The notes under the pieces: model-generated
What the model was told of the DNA's origin: nothing
What the model saw: the letters and a program-made list of their open reading frames with translations, nothing else
Databases searched by the model: none
Part shown: piece by piece, positions 8,292-28,895 of the stretch
Layout: every line of letters begins with the position of its first letter
Position numbering within the stretch: position 1 is the first letter of the stretch
Source: Bacteroidia bacterium
GTDB lineage: Bacteria; Bacteroidota; Bacteroidia; UBA4408
NCBI GenBank assembly: GCA_020845635.1
Contig: JADLFI010000011.1
Location: 1-59,278 of the forward strand
Length of the DNA stretch: 59,278 nucleotides
Direction of reading: 5' to 3'
Program-made: the position numbers and the translations under genes

Positions 8292-8296
8292 CTAAA

Positions 8297-9814: not shown

Positions 9815-9820
9815 AAAAAC

Positions 9821-9863
9821 ATCTCAATTTTGCCAACGGAAATTGAGATTACACACAGTTGGT
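9821..9863 (+). ncRNA. PK-X pseudoknot after stop codon, copy E
   Basis: Stem 1 ATCTCAATTT (9821-9830)/AAATTGAGAT (9840-9849), 10 bp. Loop GCCAAC (9832-9837) pairs with GTTGGT (9858-9863). Directly downstream lies a truncated macrodomain, so this may be a recombination junction. Confidence 0.72.
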
Positions 9864-9872
9864 GAGAAGGGG

Positions 9873-10001
9873 CTAGGTCTTCCTTATAAAATAGGCTGTG
9901 GACTAGGCGGAGGAGATTGGAACAAGGTGAAAGAAATAATTGAGAATTTTGCATTAAATCACCCAAACATAAATATAATAATTTATGAACCGTTACAATG
10001 A
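9873..10001 (+). pseudogene. C-terminal remnant of a macrodomain gene
   Basis: The frame reads GLPYKIGCGLGGGDWNKV (about residues 2-19 of the fragment), then helix EIIENFALNHP and a final beta strand INIIIYEP. LPY-KIGCGLxGGDW is the signature near the end of phage and bacterial macrodomain (ADP-ribose-binding) proteins. The first two thirds of the domain and any start codon are missing: upstream sequence is PK-X copy E. It is therefore a deletion remnant. Intact or near-intact macrodomain genes occur at 41075 and 35383. Confidence 0.7.
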
Positions 10002-12536: not shown

Positions 12537-12950
12537 ATGATTAAATTCTTTGTTTATCAGGTATATGGGTATGTTAATTCCTATATGGGAATAGCAAAAA
12601 CTTTTGGTTTGTATCAAAATCAAGAAGATGCCCAAGAAAGGTGTAATAAGTTAGAAAAAAGATATGAAAAACTAAGGAAATTGCAGGATTTAAAAGATGA
12701 ATATTATTATGACCTTAATCAACGAAATGATGTAATTTCTTTTATAAGCGGTTTTAAAAACCTTAAATTTGCTTATGAAAATGCTGTAAAAAAAGAAGAT
12801 AGAGACATTATAAACCTAAAAAAAGAAATTTTAAAATCCAAAATAGAGAAGGAAATTGGAATTTCCTATAAAGAATTTAAAAGAGTAAGAAGACTTGCAA
12901 AACCTATTCCAGACATTTCATTTCAAATTAAACCAATTCCCGTAAAATGA
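12537..12950 (+). CDS. Coiled-coil hypothetical protein (137 aa)
   Basis: N-terminal FFVYQVYGYVNSYMGIAKTFG is followed by long charged helices (NKLEKRYEKLRKLQDLKDEY and a later KEILKSKIEKE). Basic Pro-containing C-terminus. Not recognised. Overlaps the next gene by 4 nt. Confidence 0.65.
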   Translation: MIKFFVYQVYGYVNSYMGIAKTFGLYQNQEDAQERCNKLEKRYEKLRKLQDLKDEYYYDLNQRNDVISFISGFKNLKFAYENAVKKEDRDIINLKKEILKSKIEKEIGISYKEFKRVRRLAKPIPDISFQIKPIPVK

Positions 12951-13348
12951 AAAAAATCATTAATTCCGTAAATGAGAAATTTGAGGCATTAATACTAAAA
13001 TACAAAGACAGTATTGATGAAGCTAATAATAAAATTGTTGGGGAGCTAAATGCACAGCATAAAAGACTCCAAAACATTCAAAACAAAATTCAAGAACTAT
13101 CAATTGATTATAGAAATCTTGAACAAGCAATCCTCAAAGATAAGAATGAAGACATAGTGCCGTCTTTGAAGGACTTAAAAAGGAGTTGCAGCGAAAAGCT
13201 AAAACTTTCTGAGGAAATAAAAAAAGATATTCTCTTCATTATAGAGAATTTACACAAAGAAATTAGAAGCAACAATAAAGAATTTAGATTATTTAAAGAA
13301 AAAATCCAAACAATTCAAAACTCTTTTACAGACTTATGCAAGAATTAA
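12947..13348 (+). CDS. Coiled-coil protein next to SMC-like gene (133 aa)
   Basis: Almost entirely coiled coil, with heptads such as LQNIQNKIQELSIDYRNLEQAIL. It overlaps the next gene, a degenerate SMC/RecF-like protein, by 13 nt, so the pair may act together as SMC-like head and arm partner. That link is inference. Confidence 0.65.
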   Translation: MKKIINSVNEKFEALILKYKDSIDEANNKIVGELNAQHKRLQNIQNKIQELSIDYRNLEQAILKDKNEDIVPSLKDLKRSCSEKLKLSEEIKKDILFIIENLHKEIRSNNKEFRLFKEKIQTIQNSFTDLCKN

Positions 13349-14184
13349 TTGTAGAAAATTATGGTTCAATAAATGCAGACTTTAAATGCAAAAAATTAAC
13401 AATTATTGAAGGTAAAGAAAAGGAAACAATTCTACGCCTTCTCTATCTTTTTCAGAAAACTGCTTCTAAAATAAAAGCAGATTCAGATTTAGATAAATTA
13501 TCTGTTAATTTTTGGAAGAATTGGAAAAGATTAGGACTTTCTCAATCAGAAGGTTTTATACAGTGGAAATCCAATTCTGTCGAAATTACCGTAAAAGACG
13601 AAGCTGTAAAATTTACTGTGCATGATGAAGAAATAGATAAAAAAGCTATATTCTTACCAAAAAGTAGAATTTACACCTTCGAGTATACAAAGAAAGAAAA
13701 TAAAGACGAAATATTTTTAGATTTTCTAGATGAGAAAATTGTAGACACCATTGTCGAAGCAATAAGAGAGGACAACAGATCTACTATCATCGGCGGAGAA
13801 TTAGCAGTTGAATACGGCATATTCTACTTTAATGACGGTGGTGGATTTGAAGACTTAATGGATTTGCCTGAATTTTATCACAAAGTATTACCCACTGAAT
13901 ATTTATTTAACTATGTTACTTATCGTGACAAAGTTATTTTCCTTGAAAAATTCGGCGTGGAAAACACTTTTGATGAGAAATTTGAGGCATTAACCAAACA
14001 ATTATTGCAAATTTGCAAGAATACCCAAGTCATCATGACTTTAAATAATCCAAGTTTAATAGACTTTATTAATGATCCTATAACAATAGGAAATAAAATA
14101 GGTTTATTAACCATGTTAGAAACCAAACTTTTCACCGAGACTCTATACCTTTATGAAAATGAAGTCTCACAAATCTATATCTAA
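13336..14184 (+). CDS. Degenerate RecF/SMC-like P-loop protein (282 aa)
   Basis: The N-terminus has the order typical of RecF/SMC heads (LIVENYGSINADF, then LTIIEGKEKETILRLLYLF), but the P-loop GxNxxGKS/T is replaced by EGKEKETI, lacking the lysine/serine pair. The C-terminal TQVIMTLNNPSLIDFI corresponds to the strand preceding the His-switch region of OLD-type ATPases, also altered. It therefore probably cannot hydrolyse ATP in the usual way. It could be a decoy or regulatory head paired with the upstream coiled-coil protein. Confidence 0.6.
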   Translation: MQELIVENYGSINADFKCKKLTIIEGKEKETILRLLYLFQKTASKIKADSDLDKLSVNFWKNWKRLGLSQSEGFIQWKSNSVEITVKDEAVKFTVHDEEIDKKAIFLPKSRIYTFEYTKKENKDEIFLDFLDEKIVDTIVEAIREDNRSTIIGGELAVEYGIFYFNDGGGFEDLMDLPEFYHKVLPTEYLFNYVTYRDKVIFLEKFGVENTFDEKFEALTKQLLQICKNTQVIMTLNNPSLIDFINDPITIGNKIGLLTMLETKLFTETLYLYENEVSQIYI

Positions 14185-14186
14185 TT

Positions 14187-14852
14187 ATGAATACTGTTTT
14201 GCCAACTACCCACGAAAGTGAATTAATCCTAAGAGGAAAACTTTACAAACTCAATGAGGTTGAAAAAGCACTCCGAGATCTACTTGATCCTGAAATCCTC
14301 GAACACTTCACACATGAGTACAGGATTCCTCTTGACATCTTGACAGAATTTTGTGCAAGACAAATTAACCCAAGTATAGAACCACAGTACAGGAAGGAAG
14401 ATTACGACAAAGCCCTAATGTATATGGGTTTATTCGCACTTACTGCACCATTGACTTTGGGAGGTTTGGGAGTTAAATTTGTTGCTAAAAATGGCAATGA
14501 ATACCCCAATACCACACCATTAAATTTAAACAAATATGCACAGGAAATTATCTTCACTTCTGTTGCAGAGAAATTAAAAGTACCGAGAAAAAATGGAAAT
14601 GCTGTAAAAGTTTTCCAATTAACTGAAAATGCCAGAAATCATGTAACAGGCGAAATTAATATTACTTTACAGCATTTCCTAAATCCCAAACTTAACAAGT
14701 TAAGGGACGAATTAGACCTGATTCCTATTTCTATGAGACAAGCTGCCTTAGAACTGATGAGAACAACTGATGAAGTAATTGCGAATACTTCACTCGACAC
14801 AGACAAAAAAGAAAGAACCCATATTAAAAAACCAATAAAAGTAATTGTATGA
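14187..14852 (+). CDS. Hypothetical protein (221 aa)
   Basis: Not recognised. The N-terminal half has a helical region and a hydrophobic stretch YMGLFALTAPLTLGGLG (about residues 92-108), which is too Gly/Pro-rich for a confident membrane helix. C-terminus helical and basic. It starts 2 nt after the previous stop and overlaps the lipoprotein gene by 4 nt. Confidence 0.65.
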   Translation: MNTVLPTTHESELILRGKLYKLNEVEKALRDLLDPEILEHFTHEYRIPLDILTEFCARQINPSIEPQYRKEDYDKALMYMGLFALTAPLTLGGLGVKFVAKNGNEYPNTTPLNLNKYAQEIIFTSVAEKLKVPRKNGNAVKVFQLTENARNHVTGEINITLQHFLNPKLNKLRDELDLIPISMRQAALELMRTTDEVIANTSLDTDKKERTHIKKPIKVIV

Positions 14853-15088
14853 AGTACTTAATTTGCCTTTTATTCTTCTCTTCCTGCGTAACTATGAAAC
14901 CTGTGTATAGTGAGTACTATACTCAAAGTGAAATGTTCGCAGCAAGCACTGACCCAATTCCAATTCCTAAAAGATTTGACCCCGCAAAAACCAAAAGATT
15001 TATTGTCTTAGGAGAAAAGGGCATCTACGAAATCTTGATGGAAAAATCTCTTCACTTAAAATATTATCCAAACCCATGCGAAAATTAA
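14849..15088 (+). CDS. Small lipoprotein (79 aa)
   Basis: Signal peptide MKYLICLLFFSSC with a lipobox cysteine at residue 13 (F-S-S-C), followed by a soluble tail. Lipoproteins are unusual in phages except in lysis (Rz1/spanin-like) or superinfection exclusion. With the secreted protein overlapping downstream it could form part of an envelope-acting pair. Overlap with the next gene is 13 nt. Confidence 0.7.
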   Translation: MKYLICLLFFSSCVTMKPVYSEYYTQSEMFAASTDPIPIPKRFDPAKTKRFIVLGEKGIYEILMEKSLHLKYYPNPCEN

Positions 15089-15414
15089 TCTTTTTGGCTT
15101 TGCTTCTTTGTAGCCTTTGCACATTTGCACAAAACAGAGAATTTGTATCAGCTTTGTACTATAAGGAATTTGTTCTTGAAAAGTACGTTGAAGATAAAGA
15201 GTTTAAGTACGAATTTGAATCTGTCAAGAAAGTCAAATATAAAAGATTTAAGGGCAGCAAGGACTACATGGCTTTACTCTATACCAAGCAAGGCAATGTC
15301 TACGTAATAGCCTTGGGTCACAAGACAAAAAAATCGCATTTGAAATTTTTCTTGAGAGTTGGTTACAGAAGTCCTATACTTATGAAAACTTCCTTGCATG
15401 GTAACAATAATTAG
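15076..15414 (+). CDS. Exported hypothetical protein (112 aa)
   Basis: N-terminal signal peptide (MRKLIFLALLLCSLCTFAQN) with a TFA-Q cleavage site typical of Bacteroidetes exports. The mature part is short, basic and beta-rich. Adjacent to the lipoprotein at 14849; both probably act in the host envelope, perhaps in exclusion or lysis. Confidence 0.7.
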   Translation: MRKLIFLALLLCSLCTFAQNREFVSALYYKEFVLEKYVEDKEFKYEFESVKKVKYKRFKGSKDYMALLYTKQGNVYVIALGHKTKKSHLKFFLRVGYRSPILMKTSLHGNNN

Positions 15415-15718
15415 GGACGGCATTATTCCATTTTACCAAAGAGAGTTTTTAAAAGAAAGAAATTTCTCTATGACCCCTTTGGTAAAATTGGAATATAAAA
15501 GTAAGCCAAATAAACCTGCTTACGTGTGGACTAATTTCTATGGTACACAAGAAGACTTTAACAAGTTACCAATTTCTAAACAAAAAAGTTATATTGTTAA
15601 AATGCGAACTTACCAAATAAAGAAATTAGCAAGAGTTACGCCATTTCACGCTAAGAACTTAGCTCACGACTTTAACGGAAAAATATACCATGAAAATTTC
15701 ACAAGAAATACTCAATGA
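15398..15718 (+). CDS. Hypothetical protein (106 aa)
   Basis: Unrecognised basic protein (many Lys, Arg, Tyr), no export signal. Overlaps both neighbours (17 nt upstream, 29 nt downstream), so it is co-translated within the packed run. Confidence 0.6.
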   Translation: MVTIIRDGIIPFYQREFLKERNFSMTPLVKLEYKSKPNKPAYVWTNFYGTQEDFNKLPISKQKSYIVKMRTYQIKKLARVTPFHAKNLAHDFNGKIYHENFTRNTQ

Positions 15719-16199
15719 GTATATCGAAATGAAAGTTAGAGATAAGATGCCAAAAGAAGAAAAACCTGAGCCACCGAAAGGTGGCTCTAACTTTTGGTTT
15801 GTCTATTTTATCGCTGCTTTGATTGGATTATACTTTGGATTGAGTACAATTGCGGTAAAAAATTCTATCAAGAGAATTACCATCATTAGGGCAGTAGATT
15901 GTAAAGACCCAAAAGATTGTCAAGATTTTGTATTATCTGCAAATATTAATGGAAGAAATACAAAAGAAATCAAATGGGATATTACTATTGGCAATGACAC
16001 TCTTATAGAACACAGACAAAATAAAGAACAGATTGTTATTGCAATCTCTGATACTTTACCAGAAACTATCTCAACTTTGCAAAATACTTTGGGAAAAATG
16101 TATGGTAAATATAATGCTGATATATATATAAATCTTGAAAGTCCACGTATTACTAACCTAATTGAATTATCTCTTTATGGACAAAAATCATGGTTTTAA
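15690..16199 (+). CDS. Single-span membrane protein (169 aa)
   Basis: A charged, Pro-rich N-terminal tail (about residues 1-33), then one membrane helix FVYFIAALIGLYFGLSTIA (about residues 37-55), then a soluble domain with two nearby cysteines (VDCKDPKDCQDF). The last 38 nt overlap the next gene, first of the conjugation-like block. Confidence 0.7.
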   Translation: MKISQEILNEYIEMKVRDKMPKEEKPEPPKGGSNFWFVYFIAALIGLYFGLSTIAVKNSIKRITIIRAVDCKDPKDCQDFVLSANINGRNTKEIKWDITIGNDTLIEHRQNKEQIVIAISDTLPETISTLQNTLGKMYGKYNADIYINLESPRITNLIELSLYGQKSWF

Positions 16200-17265
16200 A
16201 ATAACAGCGCAAAAAAATAGAGTAAAAAAATCAAATGGGGAAGTAAACACCATTAAAATAGAAGCTGGAAAGTACGTTTGGGAAGATATAGATGAATGTG
16301 GTTTATTTATCATTATTCCAAAAGTAAAGAAAAATGTCACTATTAAAAATGGTGTTCCTAAAACTATTGTAACAAGAAAGGGATTATTGCAAATTTTACC
16401 CATTAATCAAGTAATAAAACTATGGACTAATGAAATAAAGGTATTAAGTCCTAATCTTTCCTGCACATATTTTGAAAATCATATCGTTGTAGAGGCAGAA
16501 TATATTATTACTGAATTAGGCGAAACTTGCATTTATGGAAATGAGATATTAGCGAAATCACATTTAGAAGATTCTAAAATCCTCTTAAATTTAAAAGCTC
16601 CTCAGAACATATTCAATTCCATTGAAATTATTCAGAATCCTTTGGGCTTATTAACCGAACCTGTAAAAAATAAAAATGTTCCTGTCAAGGAATGGGCAAA
16701 TTTATTTTATTTTCTCAGGGATTCAGAAGTACCTGTTAAAGACATAAGACCAGAATCTGCTCCTCTTAAAAAGAATTTAAAGGCAATAAGAGATTTTATA
16801 AAATCCTACCCCTCAAATCAAGAAGCAGAAGAATTTAAAACCAAAATTGAGAAAGAAGAAAAAGAACAAAGAGAAGAATTAATTTCTCAAATTCAAGAAT
16901 TTAAAGAATTTTATATGGATCATTTTAGATATTATAGCGATGTAATACAATTGCCATTGCCTATATATTCTGACATGATGCAAAGAATTTCAGTTGCAAT
17001 TAGAAATCATATAATTGATCATCAGTATTTATATTTAATTTTACCCAACTTTAAAAATGCCTTAGACCTTAATAATGAATTGCTTTTATTCATTGAGAAA
17101 GCTCTAATTACCCACTTTATCGTTGATAAAAAATATAAAAACACGAGGGAAAAAGAAACCACAGTATTTATTATATCTTACTCAAAAGATATAGTAACTA
17201 CTCGCACTTATGAAACCACATTTTCTAACGGCAAATTAACAGTCAATGCTAAATTACACCATTAA
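16162..17265 (+). CDS. Hypothetical protein at the head of the conjugation cassette (367 aa)
   Basis: Not recognised. The first 180 residues look beta-rich; residues about 205-260 form a charged coiled coil; the C-terminus is again mixed. ATG 16177 is an alternative start. It overlaps the VWA gene by 20 nt and lies directly upstream of VWA, E2-like, JAMM and E1-like genes, so it may be the cassette's specific partner. PRTRC-type systems include several proteins of unknown fold, and this could be one of them. Confidence 0.6.
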   Translation: MNYLFMDKNHGFKITAQKNRVKKSNGEVNTIKIEAGKYVWEDIDECGLFIIIPKVKKNVTIKNGVPKTIVTRKGLLQILPINQVIKLWTNEIKVLSPNLSCTYFENHIVVEAEYIITELGETCIYGNEILAKSHLEDSKILLNLKAPQNIFNSIEIIQNPLGLLTEPVKNKNVPVKEWANLFYFLRDSEVPVKDIRPESAPLKKNLKAIRDFIKSYPSNQEAEEFKTKIEKEEKEQREELISQIQEFKEFYMDHFRYYSDVIQLPLPIYSDMMQRISVAIRNHIIDHQYLYLILPNFKNALDLNNELLLFIEKALITHFIVDKKYKNTREKETTVFIISYSKDIVTTRTYETTFSNGKLTVNAKLHH

Positions 17266-18382
17266 TGATTTTTTCGTAGAGGCACAAAGGACTCTTGAAA
17301 ACTTTTCAAAAGAAGACTTACGAACTCGAATAGAAGAAGTAAGAAATAAATATACCGATAGTTCTAATGATCCAAAACCCTTAACTCCTTATGCTTTCTT
17401 AGAGGGAGAAAATTCAGAGTTAACAGCTCTTGACATTAAAAGGAATAATCCTAACATAAATGAAAGATTACAAGCACTTGTAAATTTAGGTTTGGATTTA
17501 GCAGAACTTAGTGTTGCGCACAATTTATTAAAAGATATACCTATAAAGCCTCATAACGGCTCTGCATTAATAATTGACATGTCAGGTTCAATGCGAGATA
17601 ATGGAAAGAATGAGGTTTCTACTATGGAGGAAGTAGCTGCTGTCAAGCCTATTAGGTACAGAAATGGTACTATCAATAGCATCGCTTCTAATTTAGTAGT
17701 AGGTACGGAATTAACAATGAGAGGAGAAACTATAAAACTACAATTTAATCCCACAGATATTTTTACGTTTAATAACGAGGCTTATAATTGGGGGATATTT
17801 AGAAAAAATCCGATTCCTAACTTTTCCACGCATATTAAAGAGGCTTTAAATCTTGCCGCTGCTCTGGGATATGAAAATTTAATAACCATTTCAGATGGAG
17901 AAGATGACTATTTTAGAACAGGTGAGCCAATAGTTAATTGGTTTGATGGAAATAGGATTTACAAAGACAATAACGTAAAAGAGGTTTTAGACCCACTAAT
18001 TAACCAAGGAGTTAGAATTTCCCCTATCTTTTTATCTCCCGGAAACACCGAAAATGAAGAATTTTATGCTTTCTGCAATACTATTGGGACGGATTTGCAA
18101 AAACTTGTGGAAGTAATAAAAGAAGACAGGTTTTATAAAGTAATGGCACAAGGAATTGATAAAATTTACAGTGTATACCAAGTAACAGCTTTGCTTACAG
18201 GAGGTATTGCTTCCTTTGGAGAGAAAGGAAAGAAAGGAATTGTAAACATAGAAGAACAAGCAAAGGAAATGGATAATTTAGCAACAAAGTTATTAGCTTT
18301 TATAGCAATAGCTTTGCAAAGAAAAAATACAAAATTAACTTCTAAATTCAATTTAACCTCATTTCTAAATGGAAGGAAATAA
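17246..18382 (+). CDS. VWA-domain protein of the ubiquitin-like cassette (378 aa)
   Basis: A von Willebrand A domain with a complete MIDAS start, ALIIDMSGSM (Asp111 is the first D of DxSxS), and a later ITISDGEDD strand. The A domain spans roughly residues 103-290. Such proteins bind ligands through a divalent metal and act as assembly factors. The C-terminal 80 residues are helical with TALLTGGIASFG. Overlaps the E2-like gene by 14 nt, implying a single operon. PRTRC-like clusters and related bacterial conjugation loci are the closest parallel I know. No signal peptide, so cytoplasmic. Confidence 0.85.
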   Translation: MLNYTINDFFVEAQRTLENFSKEDLRTRIEEVRNKYTDSSNDPKPLTPYAFLEGENSELTALDIKRNNPNINERLQALVNLGLDLAELSVAHNLLKDIPIKPHNGSALIIDMSGSMRDNGKNEVSTMEEVAAVKPIRYRNGTINSIASNLVVGTELTMRGETIKLQFNPTDIFTFNNEAYNWGIFRKNPIPNFSTHIKEALNLAAALGYENLITISDGEDDYFRTGEPIVNWFDGNRIYKDNNVKEVLDPLINQGVRISPIFLSPGNTENEEFYAFCNTIGTDLQKLVEVIKEDRFYKVMAQGIDKIYSVYQVTALLTGGIASFGEKGKKGIVNIEEQAKEMDNLATKLLAFIAIALQRKNTKLTSKFNLTSFLNGRK

Positions 18383-19430
18383 TCTCGACTTTGAAAGGAT
18401 ACTAAATAGTCCAACTTATGACCCTAATTTTGGTATCACGGAGAAAGAAACACTTTCTGTAAGAACTTTAAACACTTTAAAAAGTAGATATAGTTATGAA
18501 AGTAAGCCTACAGCTTTCTTTATCCCTATTGTGGCTTTGGCATATAACGAAGTAATTAAGCAATATTTAGAATACTTATCCTCATTCTTACCTGTAATTG
18601 TCATTATAAATGGCGGGGATATTCCAGATTCTTTTGATAAAGTTTTCTTTAAAAAAGGAGATTCTAAAACAAAAGAGGAGCTTCTAATAGAATGCGGAAT
18701 AGTTAAAAAAGAAGATTTTATAATTTCTAAAATGGGAATTTTAAAAGAATTTGTAAAAGAAAAGCTACAATATAAATACAATGATGAAATAGACCAATTT
18801 AACAGTCAGTTGGAAAAATTAAAAAGAGAAAAAGATAAAATTCTCAGTAGCCTTGTTCATGTCACAGAATTGTCAGAAGCCATTAAAAAAACTTCTAAAA
18901 CAAAGGTTGCAGTTCAAGGCGTTGAAAAATTAGAAGTTACGAAAGGCTACGCAGAAATTATATTAGAACACTTTTTAGTAAAGGATTTTATTCCTTATAA
19001 TGCAGAAAAAGATATTTATTTCCTTTGTCCTCAATTAAAAGTAACATTCTTTTATAAGGACTTTGTAATAAATGTGAATGCGGCTAACACAGATTTTAAC
19101 AATCGATTAAAAGCATATTTAAAAAGTTTTCTAAAAGAAACTTTTCCAGAAGGAACAAAGGAAGAGCATGAGAAATTTACAAGTTTCAAAATAGCTCACC
19201 CGCACAATTACGCAGAACACTTAGAAGGCGGGAATTTCTGCTTTGGGAAAGTGAATGAAAAAAAAATACTAGACCTATTTCAAAAAAATAGAATAGAAGA
19301 AATGATAAAATACATTTTATCATGCTTAAAAACTTGTTGCTCTTCTGACCATAATGCAGTCTTTGCATCAGATCACTTTATATCAGGAACAGAAACAGAA
19401 TTAATCGATTTCTTAAACTTAATGCCATAA
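18369..19430 (+). CDS. E2-like (PRTRC-B type) ubiquitin-conjugation protein (353 aa)
   Basis: The C-terminal third carries an E2-fold pattern: FKIAHPHNYAEHLEGGNFCFG, in which His277-Pro-His is followed by Cys291 at the position of the E2 catalytic cysteine (compare HPN...G-x-C in eukaryotic E2 and the H-C pairing in bacterial PRTRC-B). A coiled coil lies at about residues 135-165. The N-terminal half is of unknown fold. The gene is sandwiched between VWA and JAMM genes, with E1 next, so context strongly supports the E2 assignment. No RING or HECT ligase is visible. Confidence 0.7.
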   Translation: MEGNNLDFERILNSPTYDPNFGITEKETLSVRTLNTLKSRYSYESKPTAFFIPIVALAYNEVIKQYLEYLSSFLPVIVIINGGDIPDSFDKVFFKKGDSKTKEELLIECGIVKKEDFIISKMGILKEFVKEKLQYKYNDEIDQFNSQLEKLKREKDKILSSLVHVTELSEAIKKTSKTKVAVQGVEKLEVTKGYAEIILEHFLVKDFIPYNAEKDIYFLCPQLKVTFFYKDFVINVNAANTDFNNRLKAYLKSFLKETFPEGTKEEHEKFTSFKIAHPHNYAEHLEGGNFCFGKVNEKKILDLFQKNRIEEMIKYILSCLKTCCSSDHNAVFASDHFISGTETELIDFLNLMP

Positions 19431-20632
19431 TGAAAATACCCCTAATTATATCCCATAGAGCCGCTATAACGCTACTTGCAGGCTTCAAAGCTACAACACT
19501 TACCAAAAAGGCTTACGAGGTCTCCTATCAAGGTATTCTTGTAATGACTGAACAGAAAGATAGTTTATCAGGAGAATCAATTAAGAAGGCTTATATTCCT
19601 GACTTAATTATTACTGAAATTACTACAAAGCCTGACTTCATTGAAGAAATGCCCTTGAGTGACATCTTAGCTTGTATGCAAAATTCTTCTATTTTAAATT
19701 CCTATTTAAATAAGAACAATACAATAAAAGATGATGAAGTAACCATTGAAAGTGGTGTTGTAATCACAAAGCAATATTATTACCTTCAAATACACACCCA
19801 CCCCTACATGCCTGAATATGGCGTTATACCATCAGCTGTTGATATAAAGTGTAGAGAACAATTGGCTGCCTATACTGACAAAGTATGTACTTTAATAGTG
19901 AATGAATCGATGTTGAAAATTGAAGAAAGGTTATTTACATCTTCTCTTTTCTCTGAAAAAAGCCTCGTTCCATTAGATACATTTGAAGTCAGTGCTTGGT
20001 TTAATGATAAAAACATTTGTCATGGAAAAGTCAAGGAAACAGTAGTAACTCAAGGAGAATTAGGCACATTCATTCTTTATGAAGATGGAGAGGTTCTCTT
20101 TGTAGAAGGTGATAGAGAAGATGATTACGCCATTAGGTCTTTAAAGGCAGGAAAGTTTGCACACTTTGTAATGAAAGAACAGATTTTCACACCAGAAGAA
20201 ATTCTAATTGATGACGAACTGTTTGAAATTTATGAATTGAATCCAAATATTCAGCAATTAGGATTACTCAATCCTTACAACACAGACCGAAGTGACGACG
20301 ATTTAGAAGAAATGGTAAATTTAATTTATCCGAGTAATTTCTCTTTTATTCCTTTAAAAACTAATGTTACTGGTTTACCTGATAAAGAAATAACAGGAAA
20401 AGATAAAATAGTAAAAGGCAATTCATTAGTTTCTGTTTACTTGGAATCCTGTGATGAAGGAGAATTTAAGAGGATTTTAAAAGAGAAAAGTGAATTTTAT
20501 TTAGAAAGCGTCAACAATTTTAACGACTTAGTTAAAGCTGTTGGCAAGCTAATAAAAATGGAAGCACCAAAACCTACAGTACAAAAGCCAATTATCCCCC
20601 TTAACTTACTATTTAAAAATGATAAATACTGA
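19430..20632 (+). CDS. JAMM/JAB metallopeptidase, PRTRC-A-like (400 aa)
   Basis: The zinc-peptidase motif is H122-T-H124-P, ten residues, then S135-x-x-D138, a JAMM motif with a loop about three residues longer than the usual seven. The MPN domain occupies roughly residues 1-170; the rest is a beta-rich extension of unknown role. In ubiquitin-like systems JAMM enzymes trim the modifier precursor or remove it from targets. The start overlaps the last base of the E2-like stop, and it overlaps the E1 gene by 14 nt. Confidence 0.85.
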   Translation: MKIPLIISHRAAITLLAGFKATTLTKKAYEVSYQGILVMTEQKDSLSGESIKKAYIPDLIITEITTKPDFIEEMPLSDILACMQNSSILNSYLNKNNTIKDDEVTIESGVVITKQYYYLQIHTHPYMPEYGVIPSAVDIKCREQLAAYTDKVCTLIVNESMLKIEERLFTSSLFSEKSLVPLDTFEVSAWFNDKNICHGKVKETVVTQGELGTFILYEDGEVLFVEGDREDDYAIRSLKAGKFAHFVMKEQIFTPEEILIDDELFEIYELNPNIQQLGLLNPYNTDRSDDDLEEMVNLIYPSNFSFIPLKTNVTGLPDKEITGKDKIVKGNSLVSVYLESCDEGEFKRILKEKSEFYLESVNNFNDLVKAVGKLIKMEAPKPTVQKPIIPLNLLFKNDKY

Positions 20633-21371
20633 TAGTATCAATTTAATTACTGACTTATATACTGATATTCCAGTTCATATTATTGGGTGTGGTGCGGTCG
20701 GTTCTTATTTCTTTCAAACTTTATTTCGTGCAGGATACCCACTAAACTTAATTACCTTGTGGGATTTTGATTATGTCGAAGAAGCTAACATTTCTAGCCA
20801 AACTTTTGTTCAGGCTGATGTAGGCAACTTAAAGACTGAAAGCCTCATAGATTTAGTTCACAGAACTCTTTTGAGTAATGATGAATTATTAATTTATCTA
20901 CAGGGTGGAGTAAGAACTTTCACGCAACTTCCCACCATAAAAGGAAAATACACTAATGAAAATCTTACAGGAATTGTTATCATTGCAGTTGATAGTTTAG
21001 AATCGAGAATTAAGATATTGGAAAAATGCAGAAGCTCTTATGAGGTTGTGCATATCTACACAATAGGGTTTCCAAACATCTTAAACTTATCTGATTTAAT
21101 TATCAGCTTCAACTCTATTCAAGGAGAAAATAAATCTGAAATTAACTCCTTGATAGAAATCTACAAACAAAAATTAGAAACTGAAAAGGAAGATAGAACA
21201 GAAATTATGAAGCAATTAGCTTTGAAAAAAGCCTGTAGAATGCCCAATATAGGAGCATTAAGTCAATGTGCAACAGCGCATTTGTTTTTTACCTTTATAG
21301 AAAATTTAGAATTAATAGCCTTTAATTTACCAACAAAACAATTCAACAAATTTATAAACCCTTTCCTATGA
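20619..21371 (+). CDS. ThiF/E1-like adenylating enzyme (250 aa)
   Basis: A Rossmann nucleotide-binding start VHIIGCGAVGS (GxGxxG at residues 23-28), then LWDFDYVEEANISSQ, matching the DxDxVxxxN..xQ segment that binds ATP-Mg in ThiF/MoeB/E1 proteins, and VIIAVDSLESR matching the D-x-x-x-x-R segment. It would activate the C-terminus of a ubiquitin-like protein. It is short and has no separate Cys domain; cysteines in KKACRMPN and SQCATAH are candidates for the thioester site. No Ubl gene is adjacent. Confidence 0.88.
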   Translation: MINTDSINLITDLYTDIPVHIIGCGAVGSYFFQTLFRAGYPLNLITLWDFDYVEEANISSQTFVQADVGNLKTESLIDLVHRTLLSNDELLIYLQGGVRTFTQLPTIKGKYTNENLTGIVIIAVDSLESRIKILEKCRSSYEVVHIYTIGFPNILNLSDLIISFNSIQGENKSEINSLIEIYKQKLETEKEDRTEIMKQLALKKACRMPNIGALSQCATAHLFFTFIENLELIAFNLPTKQFNKFINPFL

Positions 21372-22198
21372 ATTTCTTTCAAAGATCTAACGCACAAAAC
21401 ATTAGCCTTTTTCATGGTACTCCTTCTAATGTAGCTTTAAAAGGTGACGCACTCAATAGCTTGGCTACATGGTTCACTTATTATAACGCAGGAAGAGTAA
21501 GTACACAACAAATTACACCCGAAAATTTTAATTTTAGATTCACTTTAAAAGGTGAGCCGTTATTGGAAATAAATTCCGAAGAATGGAAAAATAGACCTTT
21601 GATTAGCTACACTACAGCTACACAAACAATCAAAATGACAGAAGTAATTCAAATTAAATTAGAACACAAACAAGGAAACAATGCTTCCGAAGAGAAAAAA
21701 ACAGGAGGTAAAAGATGGGCAGGAATTGCTTATGAAAGGATTCTATGCCAAATTTTATTTCCAGAAGAATCTCCTGAATTTAAAGAAGAGGCTAAAAGAG
21801 CAGCAGTTACATCTCTTTTTAACCTTGTAAACTTGATAAGAGGAAATAGTCACAGTATTGTAGAAGGAAAATCTTATAAAAACCCAATGCTTTCTTCACT
21901 AACTAATAGTTTACTCCATGTGCACAAAAATTTTATTGATGCTTACACTGTTCTCCCTGCTAATCCTGTCTTGTACCACGAAAGAAGAGAAGCTGCCCTA
22001 CTTCCAAATTCCGCAAATGGAGATTGCGGACACGCAGAAACTGCAAGTGCAAGTAGTGAACCTCCAAAAGACAGTGATGTACGAACATATCCAGAAGGAG
22101 AAAATTCCCTTGAAAATATCAGTACAGGGGACATCGGAGGAAGTCCTTCAGAAGAAGATAAAGGCTATCACACAACTTTTGGACAGTCTCTCCTTTAA
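21368..22198 (+). CDS. Hypothetical protein ending the conjugation block (276 aa)
   Basis: Overlaps the E1-like gene by 4 nt. Residues 1-185 look like a genuine folded domain of unknown family. After about residue 184 the sequence becomes Ser/Glu/Pro/Gly-rich and overlaps, in another frame, the first 281 nt of the LysM lipoprotein gene. Either the tail is an overprinted disordered extension, or a frameshift has joined or split genes. No terminal Gly-Gly is present (it ends in QSLL), so it is not an obvious ubiquitin-like precursor. Confidence 0.6.
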   Translation: MNFFQRSNAQNISLFHGTPSNVALKGDALNSLATWFTYYNAGRVSTQQITPENFNFRFTLKGEPLLEINSEEWKNRPLISYTTATQTIKMTEVIQIKLEHKQGNNASEEKKTGGKRWAGIAYERILCQILFPEESPEFKEEAKRAAVTSLFNLVNLIRGNSHSIVEGKSYKNPMLSSLTNSLLHVHKNFIDAYTVLPANPVLYHERREAALLPNSANGDCGHAETASASSEPPKDSDVRTYPEGENSLENISTGDIGGSPSEEDKGYHTTFGQSLL

Positions 22199-22538
22199 TG
22201 AATGTGCTATTGAAGAGGTAGAAAAAACATTTAACATAAATTTAGTGACAGGAGAAAGTTTTCAAGAGCCTTCTCCTAAACTAAACAAAGTTTCGACACC
22301 TCCAATAACAGCAAAAGAAACAACAAGGAAAGACAAAACCACAAAAAAAGAAGCAAAAACAACTAAAAAGAAGAAAGAAACCATAAAAATCTTCTATCAC
22401 ACAGTAACAACAGGAGATAATAGAACAGCAATTTCTAAGAAACATGCTATTACAATTGAAAAATTAACTTCTTTGAATCCCAAAGTAAATTGGAAGGATT
22501 TAAAGACAGGAGATAAAATCATTGTTAAAATTGAATAG
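21918..22538 (+). CDS. LysM-domain lipoprotein (206 aa)
   Basis: The signal peptide MCTKILLMLTLFSLLILSC has a lipobox cysteine at residue 19. A central Lys/Thr-rich linker (about 115-155) leads to a C-terminal LysM domain beginning FYHTVTTGDNRTAISKKH and ending LKTGDKIIVKIE. LysM binds peptidoglycan glycan chains, so the protein tethers the outer or inner membrane to the wall, most likely as part of lysis together with the glucosaminidase 24 nt downstream. Its first 281 nt overlap the preceding gene in another frame. The signal peptide makes this start convincing. Confidence 0.8.
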   Translation: MCTKILLMLTLFSLLILSCTTKEEKLPYFQIPQMEIADTQKLQVQVVNLQKTVMYEHIQKEKIPLKISVQGTSEEVLQKKIKAITQLLDSLSFNECAIEEVEKTFNINLVTGESFQEPSPKLNKVSTPPITAKETTRKDKTTKKEAKTTKKKKETIKIFYHTVTTGDNRTAISKKHAITIEKLTSLNPKVNWKDLKTGDKIIVKIE

Positions 22539-22562
22539 TATATTTGCGGAAATTATTAACTT

Positions 22563-23198
22563 ATGCAAACATTAAAATCAATCTTTATGAAATCAACTTT
22601 GATAATTCTATTAACCATTATTGGAGCATTTAGTGTTGCAGCTCCTTCTGTTAATGTGGCTTTCTATGTTAAAGAAAAGAAAGTTGTAGAGGAATTACCA
22701 ATTGACCACGATAACAAATTCATAAAGGAACTATCACCAAAGGTTTTAAAAATCTTAGCAGAGGAAAAAGAAAAGGGTATGCAAGTACCCTTACCCTCTG
22801 TGGTTTTGGCAATGGCTTATCACGAAACTGCACAAGGCAAGACTGCCTTAGCAAAGAAAGGAAATAATTACTTCGGTATTAAAGCCTCAAAAGCCTGCAA
22901 GAAAAACCCTAAGTGCTTAACTATGTCCCTTTATGATGATGATTATAGAGTAATAAAAGGAAAAAGGACAAAAGTCAAATCTAAGTTTCAAACTTATAAA
23001 ACCTTAGATGACAATTTAAGGCATTATGTTGAAAAACTAAATGGCAATTTATATGTTAAAGCTCTGTCAAAGAAAACATCAAAAGAGCAAATTCATATTA
23101 TTGCCAAGAATTGGGCTACTGATCCTCTATATACAACCAAAATTAATAACATTATTAAACATCATGACCTAAATGAATTTGATAAAGACTTTCTTTAA
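22563..23198 (+). CDS. Exported glucosaminidase (GH73-like) endolysin (211 aa)
   Basis: Peptidoglycan hydrolase. A signal peptide (about residues 10-30, LIILLTIIGAFSVAAPS) is followed by a GH73/FlgJ-type domain with catalytic Glu in LAMAYHETAQGKTALA and the typical NNYFGIKA and TYKTLDDNLRHYVEKL segments. It would cleave between GlcNAc and MurNAc to release progeny. A Sec signal on an endolysin removes the need for a classical pore-forming holin. ATG 22590 is an alternative start giving a tighter signal peptide. Confidence 0.87.
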   Translation: MQTLKSIFMKSTLIILLTIIGAFSVAAPSVNVAFYVKEKKVVEELPIDHDNKFIKELSPKVLKILAEEKEKGMQVPLPSVVLAMAYHETAQGKTALAKKGNNYFGIKASKACKKNPKCLTMSLYDDDYRVIKGKRTKVKSKFQTYKTLDDNLRHYVEKLNGNLYVKALSKKTSKEQIHIIAKNWATDPLYTTKINNIIKHHDLNEFDKDFL

Positions 23199-23466
23199 GC
23201 ATGTTATTTATGGTATCATAGTAATTAATACTATATTGGCAATTCAAGGTTATATAATGGCTTTTACAATAGAAAAGCCGTCTTTAACTGAGGACTATGT
23301 TAAAGAGATTTTAACCTTTGAAAACTACAACGAAATAAAAATAGGAAAAGAATTTTCTATTGGAGATAGAAATTTTGGTTTTGTAATCACCTTTAATCCT
23401 TCAAACTATGGCTTATTTAACAGAAATTGCAACCAAGACGCAAACAATTCCGACATTCCCGATTGA
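23173..23466 (+). CDS. Small membrane-anchored protein (97 aa)
   Basis: One N-terminal hydrophobic helix (HVIYGIIVINTILAIQGYIM, about residues 10-29), then a soluble beta-rich tail. It overlaps the endolysin gene by 26 nt, so it could be a holin- or spanin-like lysis partner, but there is no family match. Its end overlaps the next gene by 59 nt. Confidence 0.6.
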   Translation: MNLIKTFFKHVIYGIIVINTILAIQGYIMAFTIEKPSLTEDYVKEILTFENYNEIKIGKEFSIGDRNFGFVITFNPSNYGLFNRNCNQDANNSDIPD

Positions 23467-23989
23467 GGTCTGTGTTCAAACAGGAGATATTACTTATTTC
23501 AGGGTATCAAATGTAAGAAATTCCCTAACTTATTATTTAGGACACAAAGGGGAATTAACTAGACAAGCAAGCAAAGCTAAATTGTTTACGCACAAACCTT
23601 CCATAAATGAAATACTCTTAATGGAGGAATTTAGTTGCGAAACAATCGGTGATTTTTCTTCCTGCGACATATTAGACCCAAATAATTGGTATATAGACAA
23701 GGGAGAAAATGGCTACATAATTTCTTACCAAACAGGAGAAATGGTAAATTGCCTTTACTTGAATTGGCAAGGAAACTTAGGTGAAGAAATTACCGAATTT
23801 TCACACACTCCGTCTTTAACAGAAATATTTAATCTTATGAAATTGTACTATGAAACAGAAAGTATAAACACTTATACAGTGGAACATGTAGTAATTTCAG
23901 TAACAAAAATAGAATCTTTACATGAACAGCTTCCAAAAACTCCAAAGTTGGGGGAATTTATCCCAAATTGCCCTCGATACGGAATTTAG
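23408..23989 (+). CDS. Hypothetical protein (193 aa)
   Basis: Unrecognised soluble protein with mixed alpha/beta pattern and two similar motifs (KLFTHKPSINEILLMEEF and EFSHTPSLTEIFNLMKLY) about 80 residues apart, suggesting an internal duplication. A shared (H)xPSxxEI(L/F)xLM core also occurs in the upstream 23173 product (EKPSLTEDYVKEIL). Overlaps the polymerase gene by 68 nt. Confidence 0.65.
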   Translation: MAYLTEIATKTQTIPTFPIEVCVQTGDITYFRVSNVRNSLTYYLGHKGELTRQASKAKLFTHKPSINEILLMEEFSCETIGDFSSCDILDPNNWYIDKGENGYIISYQTGEMVNCLYLNWQGNLGEEITEFSHTPSLTEIFNLMKLYYETESINTYTVEHVVISVTKIESLHEQLPKTPKLGEFIPNCPRYGI

Positions 23990-25811
23990 TTCTTTAAACC
24001 CATTTCAATCAGAATTATATGCCGTGCAATTTGGGACAGAGGAAGAACAAATTGTTTTGGAATGGCATAAATTAACTCAACAACAGAAAGATTATGTAGC
24101 AGAGTTTATAAGCAATGATTCCATCTGTAAAGTTGGACATAACATAAAAGCAGATTTAAGTCAATTAGCTGTGTTGTTAAACATTTATCCTCAAAATGTA
24201 TACGACACAATGATTGGACATACTGTTTTATATAATGGCTTAGGAACTTCTGCTTCATTGTCTTCTGTTGTTGAAATTTATTGCGGCATCACATTAGAAA
24301 AGGAAGTTAGAAATAATTTCTTAAATAGGCAAAAAGACCAAGATTTTACAGAAGAAGAAATAGAGTACTGTAAGGACGATGTTAAATACCTTTTAAAAAT
24401 AAGGCAAATACAAGAAAATGAGATTAAACATTACAATTTAGAACATTGTAATCAACTCGAACAATCCCTTGTGCCTATACTTTGCGACATTGAATTGAGA
24501 GGAATTAACTTCGATTCTAAGAAGTGGTTAGAAAATAACGAGGAAAGGAAAAAGGAATTAATTCCTATTAAAGAAGAATTGTATGAACTTCTTGGAATGC
24601 TCTATATCCTTCGTCCTGAAATAGCAGAAATTAGCTACGTTAAAAAAGGCAAATTTTCTAACTTTCTTTCCGAATTTTCTGTCAATTCGCCCTTACAATT
24701 AAATGCTTTATTTGAGCATCTTATAAAGTTGCCAAACACTAATAGTAACACTATTAAATCTTGGCTACAAAAAGAGAAGCCAACTTCTGTATTAAAAGAA
24801 GTGATAATTAAATTCTTAACTGCCTTATTAGAATACAGAGGATTATCTAAATCCATTAGTACCTATGGAGAAAGGTTTCTTTCTTACTTAGGAAAGGATA
24901 TTAGGATAAGAACCTCGTTCAAACAGAATTTTATACCCACAGGAAGATTAAGCTCAGGAGATATTAAAAATAGAAAAATAAATACAAAGGGAACTATTAC
25001 AGAAAGTAGAGCAAACCTATATGTAAACTTTCAAAATATTCCCTCCGAATCTTCTTACAGAAATTGCTTTCTTGCCGATGAAGGTTATCTATTTGGAACT
25101 TGTGATTTAAGTGGTTGTGAATTGAGGATTATTGCTGGATTAAGTCAAGATCCTCTTCTCATAGGAGCTGTAATGAATAATGAAGACTTACACAGTAAAT
25201 TAGCAACAGCTTCTTTTCGTATTATCACAGGAGATCCAAACTACATAGTAAGTTCATCAGTAAATAAAGATAAGAGAACCTTACACAAACCTGTCTTATT
25301 TGGGCTTTTATACGGTGCTGCTGCGCCTAATATTTCAGCTATACTAAATATACCGGTCAGTACAGGAAAACTCGTCTATGAGGCTATTAGAGAGCTTTTA
25401 AAGCCTTGTTTTGAATACTTAGATTGGTATAGTAAAAAATGTATAAAACAAGGTTTTGCTATTGTCAATGATGTCACAAATAGAAGGCTTTGGTTAGGAG
25501 ATTATTTAAAGTATAGAAATCAAAATCTTCCTTATCCAAATATGGATAGATTAATTAGAACTCTATATAATGTAGGTATGCAAGGTACAAATGCAGATAT
25601 TATGAAGGAAATTTTAATAACAGTATCTAAGATTCCAGAGGTTATAGTTCTTGGAACAGTACATGATGAATTAAAGTTTCAAATTCCTGAAAATAAGCCT
25701 GAGCTTGCAACTACAGTGAAGGAAGTAATGGAAGAGATTGGTACAAAATATTTAAAAAACACCGTGACCATGAAAGCAGATTTACATTTAGAAAAGTTTT
25801 GGACAAAATAA
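23922..25811 (+). CDS. Family A DNA polymerase with proofreading domain
   Basis: Replicative polymerase, 629 aa. The 3'-5' exonuclease is at the N-terminus: ExoI ALDTEFSSL (D18/E20 region), ExoII GHNIKADL, ExoIII YCKDDVKYL, all catalytic acidic residues present. Polymerase motifs: A CDLSGCELRIIAG, B KPVLFGLLYGAAAPN, C GTVHDELKF. There is no 5'-nuclease domain, as usual for phage enzymes. The start overlaps the preceding gene. A PolA-type replicase is one of the two polymerase types found in crAss-like phages. Confidence 0.95.
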   Translation: MNSFQKLQSWGNLSQIALDTEFSSLNPFQSELYAVQFGTEEEQIVLEWHKLTQQQKDYVAEFISNDSICKVGHNIKADLSQLAVLLNIYPQNVYDTMIGHTVLYNGLGTSASLSSVVEIYCGITLEKEVRNNFLNRQKDQDFTEEEIEYCKDDVKYLLKIRQIQENEIKHYNLEHCNQLEQSLVPILCDIELRGINFDSKKWLENNEERKKELIPIKEELYELLGMLYILRPEIAEISYVKKGKFSNFLSEFSVNSPLQLNALFEHLIKLPNTNSNTIKSWLQKEKPTSVLKEVIIKFLTALLEYRGLSKSISTYGERFLSYLGKDIRIRTSFKQNFIPTGRLSSGDIKNRKINTKGTITESRANLYVNFQNIPSESSYRNCFLADEGYLFGTCDLSGCELRIIAGLSQDPLLIGAVMNNEDLHSKLATASFRIITGDPNYIVSSSVNKDKRTLHKPVLFGLLYGAAAPNISAILNIPVSTGKLVYEAIRELLKPCFEYLDWYSKKCIKQGFAIVNDVTNRRLWLGDYLKYRNQNLPYPNMDRLIRTLYNVGMQGTNADIMKEILITVSKIPEVIVLGTVHDELKFQIPENKPELATTVKEVMEEIGTKYLKNTVTMKADLHLEKFWTK

Positions 25812-25826
25812 TTAAATTTTTAAACT

Positions 25827-27158
25827 ATGACACTTATTATCCTACTACTTTTAGTAGCCCTATTTGTTATTCCATATCTACTTTTAGTGTTTTCTACTGA
25901 TGAAAAAGCATTAAAAAGAGAAATTAAAATTCAAGATGGCATCGCCAAGTTATCTGAAATCCAATTAATCGCTGTGCCTGCTCTATTAATAGGAGCGAGT
26001 ATTTTCATGGTTTGGTATAAAGGACACACAAGTTCTGAAAAAGCCTTTGAAAGTTATGTGGCATACAGTAAAGCCTATTGCGATAGGTTCTGTGATGTTG
26101 CAAGCAGAGAGAATTTAGCTAAACTCACAGTAGACTTGGCTAATGTGAGTCATGAAGTTGCTATCAGAGAATTACATAATATCACAGGAGTTCCATATTT
26201 TGGACAGTCAGAGTTATTTCTAAGTATAGTAAATTTCATCAATACTCCGATTACATTGGCATTTTTCAGTCTTCTATTCTTTGTTTTGAGTGGTTATGGC
26301 ATGAGATACAATAGTAAGGTAATAGATGAGGTTAAAGCTACTGAAAAATTACTTACTTACGACATTTTTAAAGCAAAGAAATTCTGGGCATTATTAATTC
26401 TGACCTTTATTCTTACAGAAATAGCCTTATACACCTTTATTAGTAGCTTTGCCTTGTATTTAGCAGCATTTCTGGTCTCTTTGTACCTTTTCTTTATTAC
26501 TATTGTTTACAAATATAATAGAGAATGTACTCAAGCATCAGAAGTTTTAGTAGGAATTTGCTTTACTGCAGGTTTCATTGTACTTAGCATTTATGCAATG
26601 GACTTATATAATGACTACAAGTACACTATTGAAATCGGTCAACAAATTACTGATTACAAAGTTCAGCACTTGCAACAATTATTTCTAATTCAACAACAAG
26701 AATGGAAAACTATTGTAGAAACCAATGTAAAACTAACTCCAGAAATCCTGCAAAAATATTCCTGTGTATCTAAGGGCACATTATCTATGAATGAATGTCT
26801 GACTGCTTTTGTAAAAGCAGAAGATGGTAATTACATGAACAGCTTTATTGCGCAATTCTTAATTACCTTAGTGATGTTCTTAATTGAAAGTTTTGCTATC
26901 ATTTGGGGTGCAAGAACTGATAAAATCCAAAGATTAACTGAATATGCTCTAACAAGTGTTCAGAAAGAAGCTGCTTTGTTTGAGCAAGACATTAAAGACG
27001 ACGGAAAATTAAACCGTTCTAATCAACCACAGGCAAAAATTCAAACTCAACCTCAACCAAAACCACAAACTTATAATGCCGACAAAAGCACTATAATTGT
27101 AGATGACGATGATGATGAGGAAGAAAATCCCCCTTTAACAATAGGGAACTCCATTTAG
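25827..27158 (+). CDS. Multi-span membrane protein (443 aa)
   Basis: About seven hydrophobic helices: near residues 1-22, 48-66, 132-152, 185-203, 206-227, 238-257 and 345-365. A long extracytoplasmic loop contains paired cysteines (YCDRFCD). The C-terminal tail is Gln/Pro-rich and ends in an acidic run of six or more Asp/Glu. No family recognised. Located between polymerase and helicase genes, it might anchor replication to the membrane or modify host envelope properties. Confidence 0.75.
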   Translation: MTLIILLLLVALFVIPYLLLVFSTDEKALKREIKIQDGIAKLSEIQLIAVPALLIGASIFMVWYKGHTSSEKAFESYVAYSKAYCDRFCDVASRENLAKLTVDLANVSHEVAIRELHNITGVPYFGQSELFLSIVNFINTPITLAFFSLLFFVLSGYGMRYNSKVIDEVKATEKLLTYDIFKAKKFWALLILTFILTEIALYTFISSFALYLAAFLVSLYLFFITIVYKYNRECTQASEVLVGICFTAGFIVLSIYAMDLYNDYKYTIEIGQQITDYKVQHLQQLFLIQQQEWKTIVETNVKLTPEILQKYSCVSKGTLSMNECLTAFVKAEDGNYMNSFIAQFLITLVMFLIESFAIIWGARTDKIQRLTEYALTSVQKEAALFEQDIKDDGKLNRSNQPQAKIQTQPQPKPQTYNADKSTIIVDDDDDEEENPPLTIGNSI

Positions 27159-27238
27159 AAAGAGGTTTTGCAAAGATTGTTTTTGATGCGGTAAAGTTAA
27201 TAGTAGCTAAGTATAAAACCTTACAGGGGGAGTCTTTA

Positions 27239-28465
27239 ATGATTCCCCTTGTAAAAAATTATAAAAACAATCGTGCGAAATTTGTAGATAAATCAGAGTT
27301 CCCTAATTTAGATAGGGAGACAATGCGTATTATAGGAACATTGTTGAATGCAAATAATGTAGAACAACTTATTGATTCTTTTGAAGCATTCCCATTTTCT
27401 TTTCCTATTAGAAAGCCTTACGGATTAAATGATTTATTTTCTATTGAAAAGGCTTTTGTAATTTTAAGAAGCTATAAATTATTGACAGAGAAGGTAAAAA
27501 CACTACTTAAAGAGAAATTTAAATTAACTTTAAAGCAGGATTTATTTTTAAAAAATTTAGAAAATACTTTAAGTACGTTTGATTCTGCCGAAGAATTTGT
27601 AAAAAACTTATTAGCAGAAACTCCCACTTTAAAAACAATTACCTTACCAATGGAAAAATTGTCAAAACTTTGTGATAGAATTAAGGAGTTAGTAATTGAG
27701 CAAGAGAAAAGATTTGGTATTGTGTTCTTTAAGAGGAGGTCTTATGACGCAATTAGAGAACTCTTTATGACTAAATTACTTTCCTATGCAAAAGGTCTAG
27801 ATAATGCCTATGAACCGAAAGAAAAGACCTTAATTGCTTATGAAGGTTTAAAAGAACTCGTTGATAAAGGAGAAGAAATTTTAAAAAGTATTGTTCTCAA
27901 CGAAACACTTTTAACAGAATTTCCTCCCAATGATAGTTTTGCTCAAATACGAGATGAATTGTATAGCACAATTAAGACAATTAGAGATTTAAAACAAGAA
28001 CTAATAAATGAAGAAAAACTTTTGTATTCTAACACACCAAATCAAGGAAACTTGTCAAGACTTTCTTTCCTTGAAGTGCATTTAGCTCATGTTGATACAA
28101 AAGATTTATTAGAAAGTGTTCAATCTCCATTGGAGGAAAAAGAAGGAATTAGAAATTATGCTTTTAAATTGTTGACAAATAAAACTTCTCCACGAAAAGT
28201 TGTTCTTATCGAAACTCTAACTGAGAAAATAAAACAAGAAGAAGAGCATAAAAGCAAAATAGAGGAGAAGATAAAAGAAATGGATCATACAAAAAGCGAG
28301 ACAAACAGGCAGAGAATTGTTAAAAAATTAGAATTAGAAAATGAGAATTTCAAACAAAATATTTCAGCTTTACGTGATTTTCTAAGCAGCAGTTTAGGAT
28401 TAACAGTAAATAAAAAAGCTCAAAATCATGTTAATAGAATTAAAAACAATAATAGAGATAATTAA
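27239..28465 (+). CDS. Coiled-coil hypothetical protein (408 aa)
   Basis: Helical throughout, with a clear coiled coil near residues 320-380 (EKIKQEEEHKSKIEEKIKEM). The ATG lies in the loop of a short GGGGA/TCCCC hairpin. The 80-nt upstream spacer is the only gap of that size in this part of the operon and may hold a promoter, but I see no clear consensus. The 3' end overlaps the next gene by 38 nt. Possibly a replication accessory protein by position. Confidence 0.65.
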   Translation: MIPLVKNYKNNRAKFVDKSEFPNLDRETMRIIGTLLNANNVEQLIDSFEAFPFSFPIRKPYGLNDLFSIEKAFVILRSYKLLTEKVKTLLKEKFKLTLKQDLFLKNLENTLSTFDSAEEFVKNLLAETPTLKTITLPMEKLSKLCDRIKELVIEQEKRFGIVFFKRRSYDAIRELFMTKLLSYAKGLDNAYEPKEKTLIAYEGLKELVDKGEEILKSIVLNETLLTEFPPNDSFAQIRDELYSTIKTIRDLKQELINEEKLLYSNTPNQGNLSRLSFLEVHLAHVDTKDLLESVQSPLEEKEGIRNYAFKLLTNKTSPRKVVLIETLTEKIKQEEEHKSKIEEKIKEMDHTKSETNRQRIVKKLELENENFKQNISALRDFLSSSLGLTVNKKAQNHVNRIKNNNRDN

Positions 28466-28895
28466 AAATAACGTGGTAGCTCAGGAGGTTGCTTTTAACA
28501 CTTTAAAAGCCTTAGGATTAATAGATGAAAATTCAAAATTCTGTCAAAATAATGTAGATGAAATTGAAAATTTTGAAAGTTTCTTTGAATTATTCTTTAA
28601 TTTGTGGAACAATCTACCTAATGAATTATCTATTGGAAAAGGCAATAGAGAAAATGCTAAAAATAAATTAAAACAGTACTTACAACATACAGGGCATACA
28701 CATAAGCAAATTATTGAAGCCACTAAATCATACATAGAAGACTGTATTTATTATAAGCGCATTGCCAAATTTCCACAATATTTTATATTACCACAATATA
28801 AAAAATTTAATAATTTAATTACAGATAGTGATTTATACAGCAGTGTAACTAACCCAAAAGAAAATTTAGGAGATATTTTCACTGTGCATGTTTAA
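28428..28895 (+). CDS. Hypothetical protein before helicase (155 aa)
   Basis: No recognised domain. Helical, AT-rich; residues 75-115 (KNKLKQYLQHTGHTHKQIIEATKSYIEDCIYYKRIAKFP, quoted as a region only by its ends here: KNKLKQYL to IAKFP) resemble the short basic helical pair found in small phage replication accessory proteins. It overlaps the helicase by 8 nt, so a loader or helicase-binding role is possible by position only. Confidence 0.55.
   Translation: MLIELKTIIEIIKNNVVAQEVAFNTLKALGLIDENSKFCQNNVDEIENFESFFELFFNLWNNLPNELSIGKGNRENAKNKLKQYLQHTGHTHKQIIEATKSYIEDCIYYKRIAKFPQYFILPQYKKFNNLITDSDLYSSVTNPKENLGDIFTVHV

Follow-up and report, generated by a model that had tools for sequence, protein, structure and literature searches.

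Enzymes of a putative ubiquitin-like conjugation system on a crAss-like phage

The genes at positions 18369-21371 of the window, which is the whole 59,278 bp contig analysed here, probably encode the core enzymes of a ubiquitin-like conjugation system that belongs to a crAss-like phage, with a modifier relay drawn by analogy with related phages. The enzyme motifs and their conservation, the clustering of the genes, and the modifier-like (Ubl-like) genes in related phage cassettes are observed directly, and they support the phage-borne conjugation system put forward in a preliminary description of this DNA. Moreover, sequence comparisons indicate that the cassette belongs to a broad phage family, of which we found no description in the open literature. 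In particular, the open-access literature (a set that excludes most subscription papers and preprints outside PMC) does not describe the cassette of crAss-like phages as ubiquitin-like, and we found in the open literature no experiment on any member of this phage family.

Enzymes of the six-gene run

Six consecutive, overlapping open reading frames (ORFs) occupy the + strand upstream of the endolysin and PolA genes (Table 1). The overlap of the cassette genes, noted in the preliminary description, is thus confirmed. Pfam has no match for the JAMM, E2-like or VWA-like proteins of the window, which are assigned by their motifs and, for the JAMM and E2-like proteins, additionally by family alignments. 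No variation is seen across the alignments of relatives at Cys291 and Gly293 of the E2-like protein, at the ligand positions of JAMM or at the adenylation residues of E1. Of the four domains initially called, the E2-like cysteine, the JAMM motif and the ThiF/E1 domain are thus borne out by conservation and, for the last, by the Pfam match; the VWA domain is called from its motif.

Table 1. Genes of the run at positions 16162-22198 of the window.
Feature	Position	Strand	Description
First gene of run	16162..17265	+	367 aa; no relative found
VWA-like protein	17246..18382	+	378 aa; motif only
E2-like protein	18369..19430	+	353 aa; HPH 277-279 (19197-19205), Cys291 (19239-19241)
JAMM metalloprotease-like protein	19430..20632	+	400 aa; H122, H124, S135, D138 (19793-19843)
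E1/ThiF adenylation protein	20619..21371	+	250 aa; Pfam ThiF 1e-11
Last gene of run	21368..22198	+	276 aa; no family match

The E2-like protein has a long coiled coil followed by an E2-like core. Its Cys291 and Gly293 are the only invariant columns in alignments of 14, 24 and 30 E2-like sequences (the larger ones from diverse phages), where part of the two larger sets was picked by the HxH...CxG motif itself. An AlphaFold model of the protein, calculated with 24 aligned sequences, has a pLDDT of 52 and orders its strands and helices as in the UBC fold, and a second model, of the E2 core alone, has a pLDDT of 51. The first two PDB matches of the model in Foldseek are UbcH7 and UBE2S, though with E > 1, and VIA-align returns Z scores of 4-5.7, mostly to UBC/RWD folds mixed with coiled-coil and unrelated chains. 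Overall, the models lean towards an E2 (UBC) fold and do not prove it: the proposed fold is favoured by the ubiquitin-conjugating enzymes at the top of the matches, but the pLDDT of 52 and the E values above 1 make this support weak. Pfam E2-family models match none of the 24 E2-like proteins, and the E2 family profile finds no relevant PDB sequence. In 395 genomes from the class, the E2 profile recovers only the window; viral contigs searched with the single sequences of the window's E1, E2 and PolA proteins yield no relative. An hhalign score between the profile A2 and the window E2 was rejected as circular, as the window sequence is included in that profile.

In the JAMM protein, the invariant columns among 14 sequences are Met1, H122, H124, S135 and D138, which include the complete motif that had been proposed, and Glu30, judged by eye, is the probable catalytic glutamate. 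Its family profile matches the PDB sequence of Pyrococcus JAMM1 (2.2e-4) and, more weakly, CSN5. The conserved residues of the window E1 are G23, G25, G28, S29, D49, D51, N57, Q61, K72 and D125; its active-site cysteine is possibly C206, a position whose register in the window is uncertain. The best match of the E1 family profile among PDB sequences is UBA5 (3e-18), with Cap2 and BubCD also found.

The VWA-like protein carries a MIDAS motif, found by eye and by regular expression, at residues 111-115 (D111-M-S113-G-S115; 17576-17590), with SDGED farther on. Neither Pfam nor the PDB sequences give it a match, even at E <= 10, a single-sequence scan of viral contigs finds no homologue, and it is not a conserved part of the relatives' cassettes. 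The one parallel in a viral locus is a DUF2828/DUF7788 protein of L042 with a similar DxSGS motif, located upstream of the cassette. The first gene of the run, for which the ATG at 16177 is the likelier start, precedes the enzyme genes and so stands where relatives carry their Ubl; its protein has no family match and no detected similarity to a Ubl, and a phmmer search of 100 fetched loci gives no other hit. The last protein of the run contains KKTGG, with no Ubl fold demonstrated; it has no profile match and is not detectably related to the product of the gene after E1 in crAss001.

The carrier phage and its contigs

The window belongs to a bin of 60 contigs (3.05 Mb). A second contig of this bin (C32; 46,247 bp) encodes a TerL that is 37% identical to the terminase of Cellulophaga phage phi14:2. 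It also has further large ORFs in a row, placed as would be expected of portal, capsid and tail genes. Within the window, a 1416-aa protein resembles the RNA polymerase (RNAP)-associated protein of phi14:2 (3e-4), and crAss-like phages are among the matches of its PolA. Two marks of Crassvirales, a crAss-like terminase and an RNAP-associated protein, are therefore present, and they are the grounds on which the phage is identified as crAss-like. The two contigs add up to about 105 kb, which agrees with the genome size of crAss-like phages, and by their gene content we take the window (59 kb) and C32 (46 kb) to be parts of one such phage. An ORF of 4487 aa on the - strand (45811-59274) runs to the end of the window and has no PHROG match; judged from where it lies, it may encode a giant virion RNA polymerase protein of the crAss type, which may continue on C32.

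Positions 12619-29374 of the window are 99.6% identical over 16.7 kb to a second assembly (L202; QCWD01000004.1), a phage with an identical terminase that is filed in a bin labelled Nitrososphaeraceae archaeon. As one phage is found in two bins, of which the other is archaeal, at least one bin assignment must be wrong, and the host is not given by the bin.

A 97-nt repeat whose ends are complementary occurs at four intergenic places in the window (706-802, 4047-4143, 5916-6012 and 7148-7244), both in its GC-richer first 6 kb and in the remainder. A tRNA-Met gene is located at 6014-6087, and its 3' part occurs again, in degenerate form, at 7277-7335.

Related cassettes and the modifier

Cassettes with the same enzymes are widespread in phages. 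The E1 of the crAss-like phage cr111 matches 77 phage records, and the 211-aa Ubl-like protein encoded upstream of it matches 76, in the same phage groups. The gene order Ubl-like, E2-like, JAMM, E1 and one more gene is found in crAss001, cr phages, DAC15, bajarodcaudo virus and others, and also in Fpv1, where an endonuclease gene splits the JAMM gene. GenBank mostly labels two of these genes as metalloprotease-domain and thiamine-biosynthesis proteins; one record, PQ006092, labels its E1 an 'E1 enzyme family protein'.

Clustering was quantified across 80 viral loci from IMG/VR, which were gathered by the E1 profile alone. A JAMM gene lies within 2.5 kb of E1 in 31 of the 80 loci with the original profile and in 67 with the iterated profile. 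The HxH(6-28)CxG motif occurs in 23 ORFs, compared to 2.3 expected by shuffling, and 22 of these 23 are beside E1/JAMM (p = 1.2e-9). One viral contig, L034, has two E2-E1 units in tandem (4663-9968), which suggests a duplication of the conjugation relay.

These loci bear on a different chemistry, in which E1 and JAMM process a ThiS-like protein for thiocarboxylate formation, and thus for nucleotide or cofactor modification instead of conjugation. The E1 does belong to the ThiF family, some phage modifiers resemble ThiS, and many viral loci have E1 and JAMM with no recognised E2. However, the window and the crAss-type cassettes place an E2-like protein with an invariant cysteine beside E1 and JAMM, and no sulfur-transfer gene is recognised among the six-gene run, making a sulfur carrier or small-molecule function quite improbable.

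The modifier-like gene of the relatives is mostly upstream of the E2 gene. Its product either ends in Gly-Gly, at times with a few residues more, or carries a conserved K-x-S-G with an extension behind it. In many viral contigs, small ORFs with Gly-Gly tails (VKGGNK, IKGGL, RNKTGG, MQGGR and others) are located beside E1/JAMM, an enrichment with p = 0.0014; several match Pfam ThiS (2.4e-5) or Ub-Mut7C (1.3e-5), two of them above the curated cut-off. In the crAss-type Ubl-like protein, the N-terminal region is conserved as far as K-x-S-G, after which comes a variable tail. Its profile has no significant PDB sequence match, and the pattern of its residues is what points to a beta-grasp fold. In the crAss-like record G400 the Ubl ends in KSGR, whereas in others KxSG is internal, a difference that fits C-terminal processing; the glycine of K-x-S-G may accordingly be the conjugated end that JAMM would expose.

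No Ubl was detected in the window or C32 with the crAss-type, ThiS-like and other Ubl profiles, the Ubl of L007, or PRTRC-C. The small proteins at 11116 and 10479, which had been named for a beta-grasp check, likewise have no Ubl profile match. Control searches between Ubl groups failed as well, so divergent Ubls would be missed by these searches. The cassette had been described as lacking an evident modifier, which holds for the window phage at this low sensitivity; a modifier-like gene is, however, frequent in the cassettes of related phages. Most likely, the modifier of the window phage is a divergent protein that escaped recognition.

The same result enters into two other explanations. Decay of the cassette, with the enzymes as a remnant left after loss of the modifier, would also account for the failure to find one, and the pN/pS of 1.03 between the two assemblies comes from 15 changes, too few to show selection; yet none of the six ORFs is truncated or disrupted in either assembly, the motif residues are intact, and we regard decay as very unlikely. 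The second explanation is counter-defence, where a cassette without its own modifier would strip or hijack a Ubl modifier of the host (for example, of the Bil or CBASS type), with JAMM taking tags off phage proteins while E1/E2 compete with the enzymes of the host. The presence of a JAMM protein and of a ThiS-family protein elsewhere in the bin agrees with this explanation, as does the failure to find a phage modifier. On the other hand, the host of the phage is fixed by neither bin, and in related cassettes E1 and E2 stay linked to a modifier-like gene, a set that pure de-conjugation or sabotage would not need. Counter-defence is therefore unlikely, and conjugation with a phage modifier remains the preferred reading.

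Known systems and proposed function

The closest comparison is crAss001 (Steigviridae), whose genes gp79-gp75 are annotated as hypothetical, hypothetical, metalloprotease domain, thiamine biosynthesis ThiF and hypothetical. Both phages are crAss-like, and their E2-like, JAMM and E1 genes agree in order and in the conserved residues of the products. In crAss001, the Ubl-like gene comes first and the cassette is located between primase and uracil-DNA glycosylase (UDG), whereas the window cassette precedes endolysin and PolA, includes a VWA-like protein, and has its E1 elsewhere in the tree. In particular, the window E1 groups with the E1 of L007 and the second E1 of L083 (support 0.93). In this tree, which has long branches and a midpoint root, its grouping with L007 and with other non-Steigviridae loci has supports of 0.93 and 0.84, and the E1s of crAss001 and PRTRC are distant from it. 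The distance from the Steigviridae E1s suggests repeated acquisition of such cassettes by crAss-like phages. L007 (MT835544.1), a human gut phage contig, also has the order E2-JAMM-E1; it differs by a 78-aa Ubl-like ORF without Gly-Gly upstream of E2.

The PRTRC clusters of plasmids similarly combine a small C protein, an E2-like B protein, a JAB protein (A) and ThiF, and the PRTRC proteins share with the crAss proteins both the C-x-G pattern at the E2 Cys and a JAMM motif of the FFSxTD type. The early remark was that the window cassette resembles PRTRC, but membership is not supported: the window E1 matches TIGR03736 (PRTRC_ThiF) at 2.8e-9 with 36.7 bits, compared to a cut-off of 144.75, none of the six cassette proteins matches the NCBIfam models of PRTRC proteins A, B, C, E, F or ParB at E <= 1, and the E1s are distant in the tree. 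Iyer et al. (2006) list in their row 6d a set of Ub-like, JAB, E1-like and E2-like genes, which appears to be the PRTRC group, with an E2 that lacks the classical His upstream of its Cys (PMC1779556); unlike that E2, the window E2-like protein has HPH.

Bil (BilABCD), CBASS Cap2/Cap3 and Bub share the E1/E2/JAMM logic of bacterial ubiquitin-like conjugation. These are bacterial operons studied mainly as anti-phage defence, whereas the window genes are carried by a phage, and only their E1 domain matches the defence models, which are generic E1-E2 models. The role of CBASS as an anti-phage defence has been described (PMC10097602).

In phi14:2 (L101), the slot from primase to UDG (22025-27669) contains GGCT, ATP-grasp, COOH.NH2 ligase, Gn_AT and amidoligase genes. 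This amidoligase/ATP-grasp set stands exactly where crAss001 carries its Ubl cassette, and three other crAss-like viral records have an amidoligase. Across 24 crAss-like records, E1 and amidoligase occur in four each with no overlap, an outcome that chance alone gives in about 46% of cases by our own calculation. The arrangement is a possible clue that the slot serves covalent protein modification by either chemistry.

For the window phage, we infer the chemistry and the direction in which the modifier moves, as well as the substrates and what the VWA-like protein does. A small beta-grasp modifier would be activated by the E1-like protein through adenylation of its C-terminal glycine, then move to Cys291 of the E2-like protein, and from there be joined to protein substrates. 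The JAMM protein would process the precursor of the modifier, remove the tag, or both, making the modification reversible during infection. The VWA-like protein and the first protein of the run may serve as regulators or as adaptors for substrates, and the targets would probably be phage or host proteins of the takeover and replication stage.

We put forward a wider proposal more tentatively, as one that could well be wrong: crAss-like phages would run full ubiquitin-like conjugation, acquired at least twice (by the Steigviridae and the window types), with JAMM freeing the modifier from a K-x-S-G precursor, and with a slot for covalent modification that an amidoligase set fills in phi14:2. Cultured members exist (crAss001, DAC15 and Fpv1), so the claim is open to laboratory test. 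The crAss-like phages are among the most abundant phages of the human gut. If the proposal is true, the use of ubiquitin-like conjugation by phages would reverse the logic of bacterial systems that have been studied mainly as host defence, and the 'thiamine biosynthesis' genes of abundant human gut phages would gain a function.
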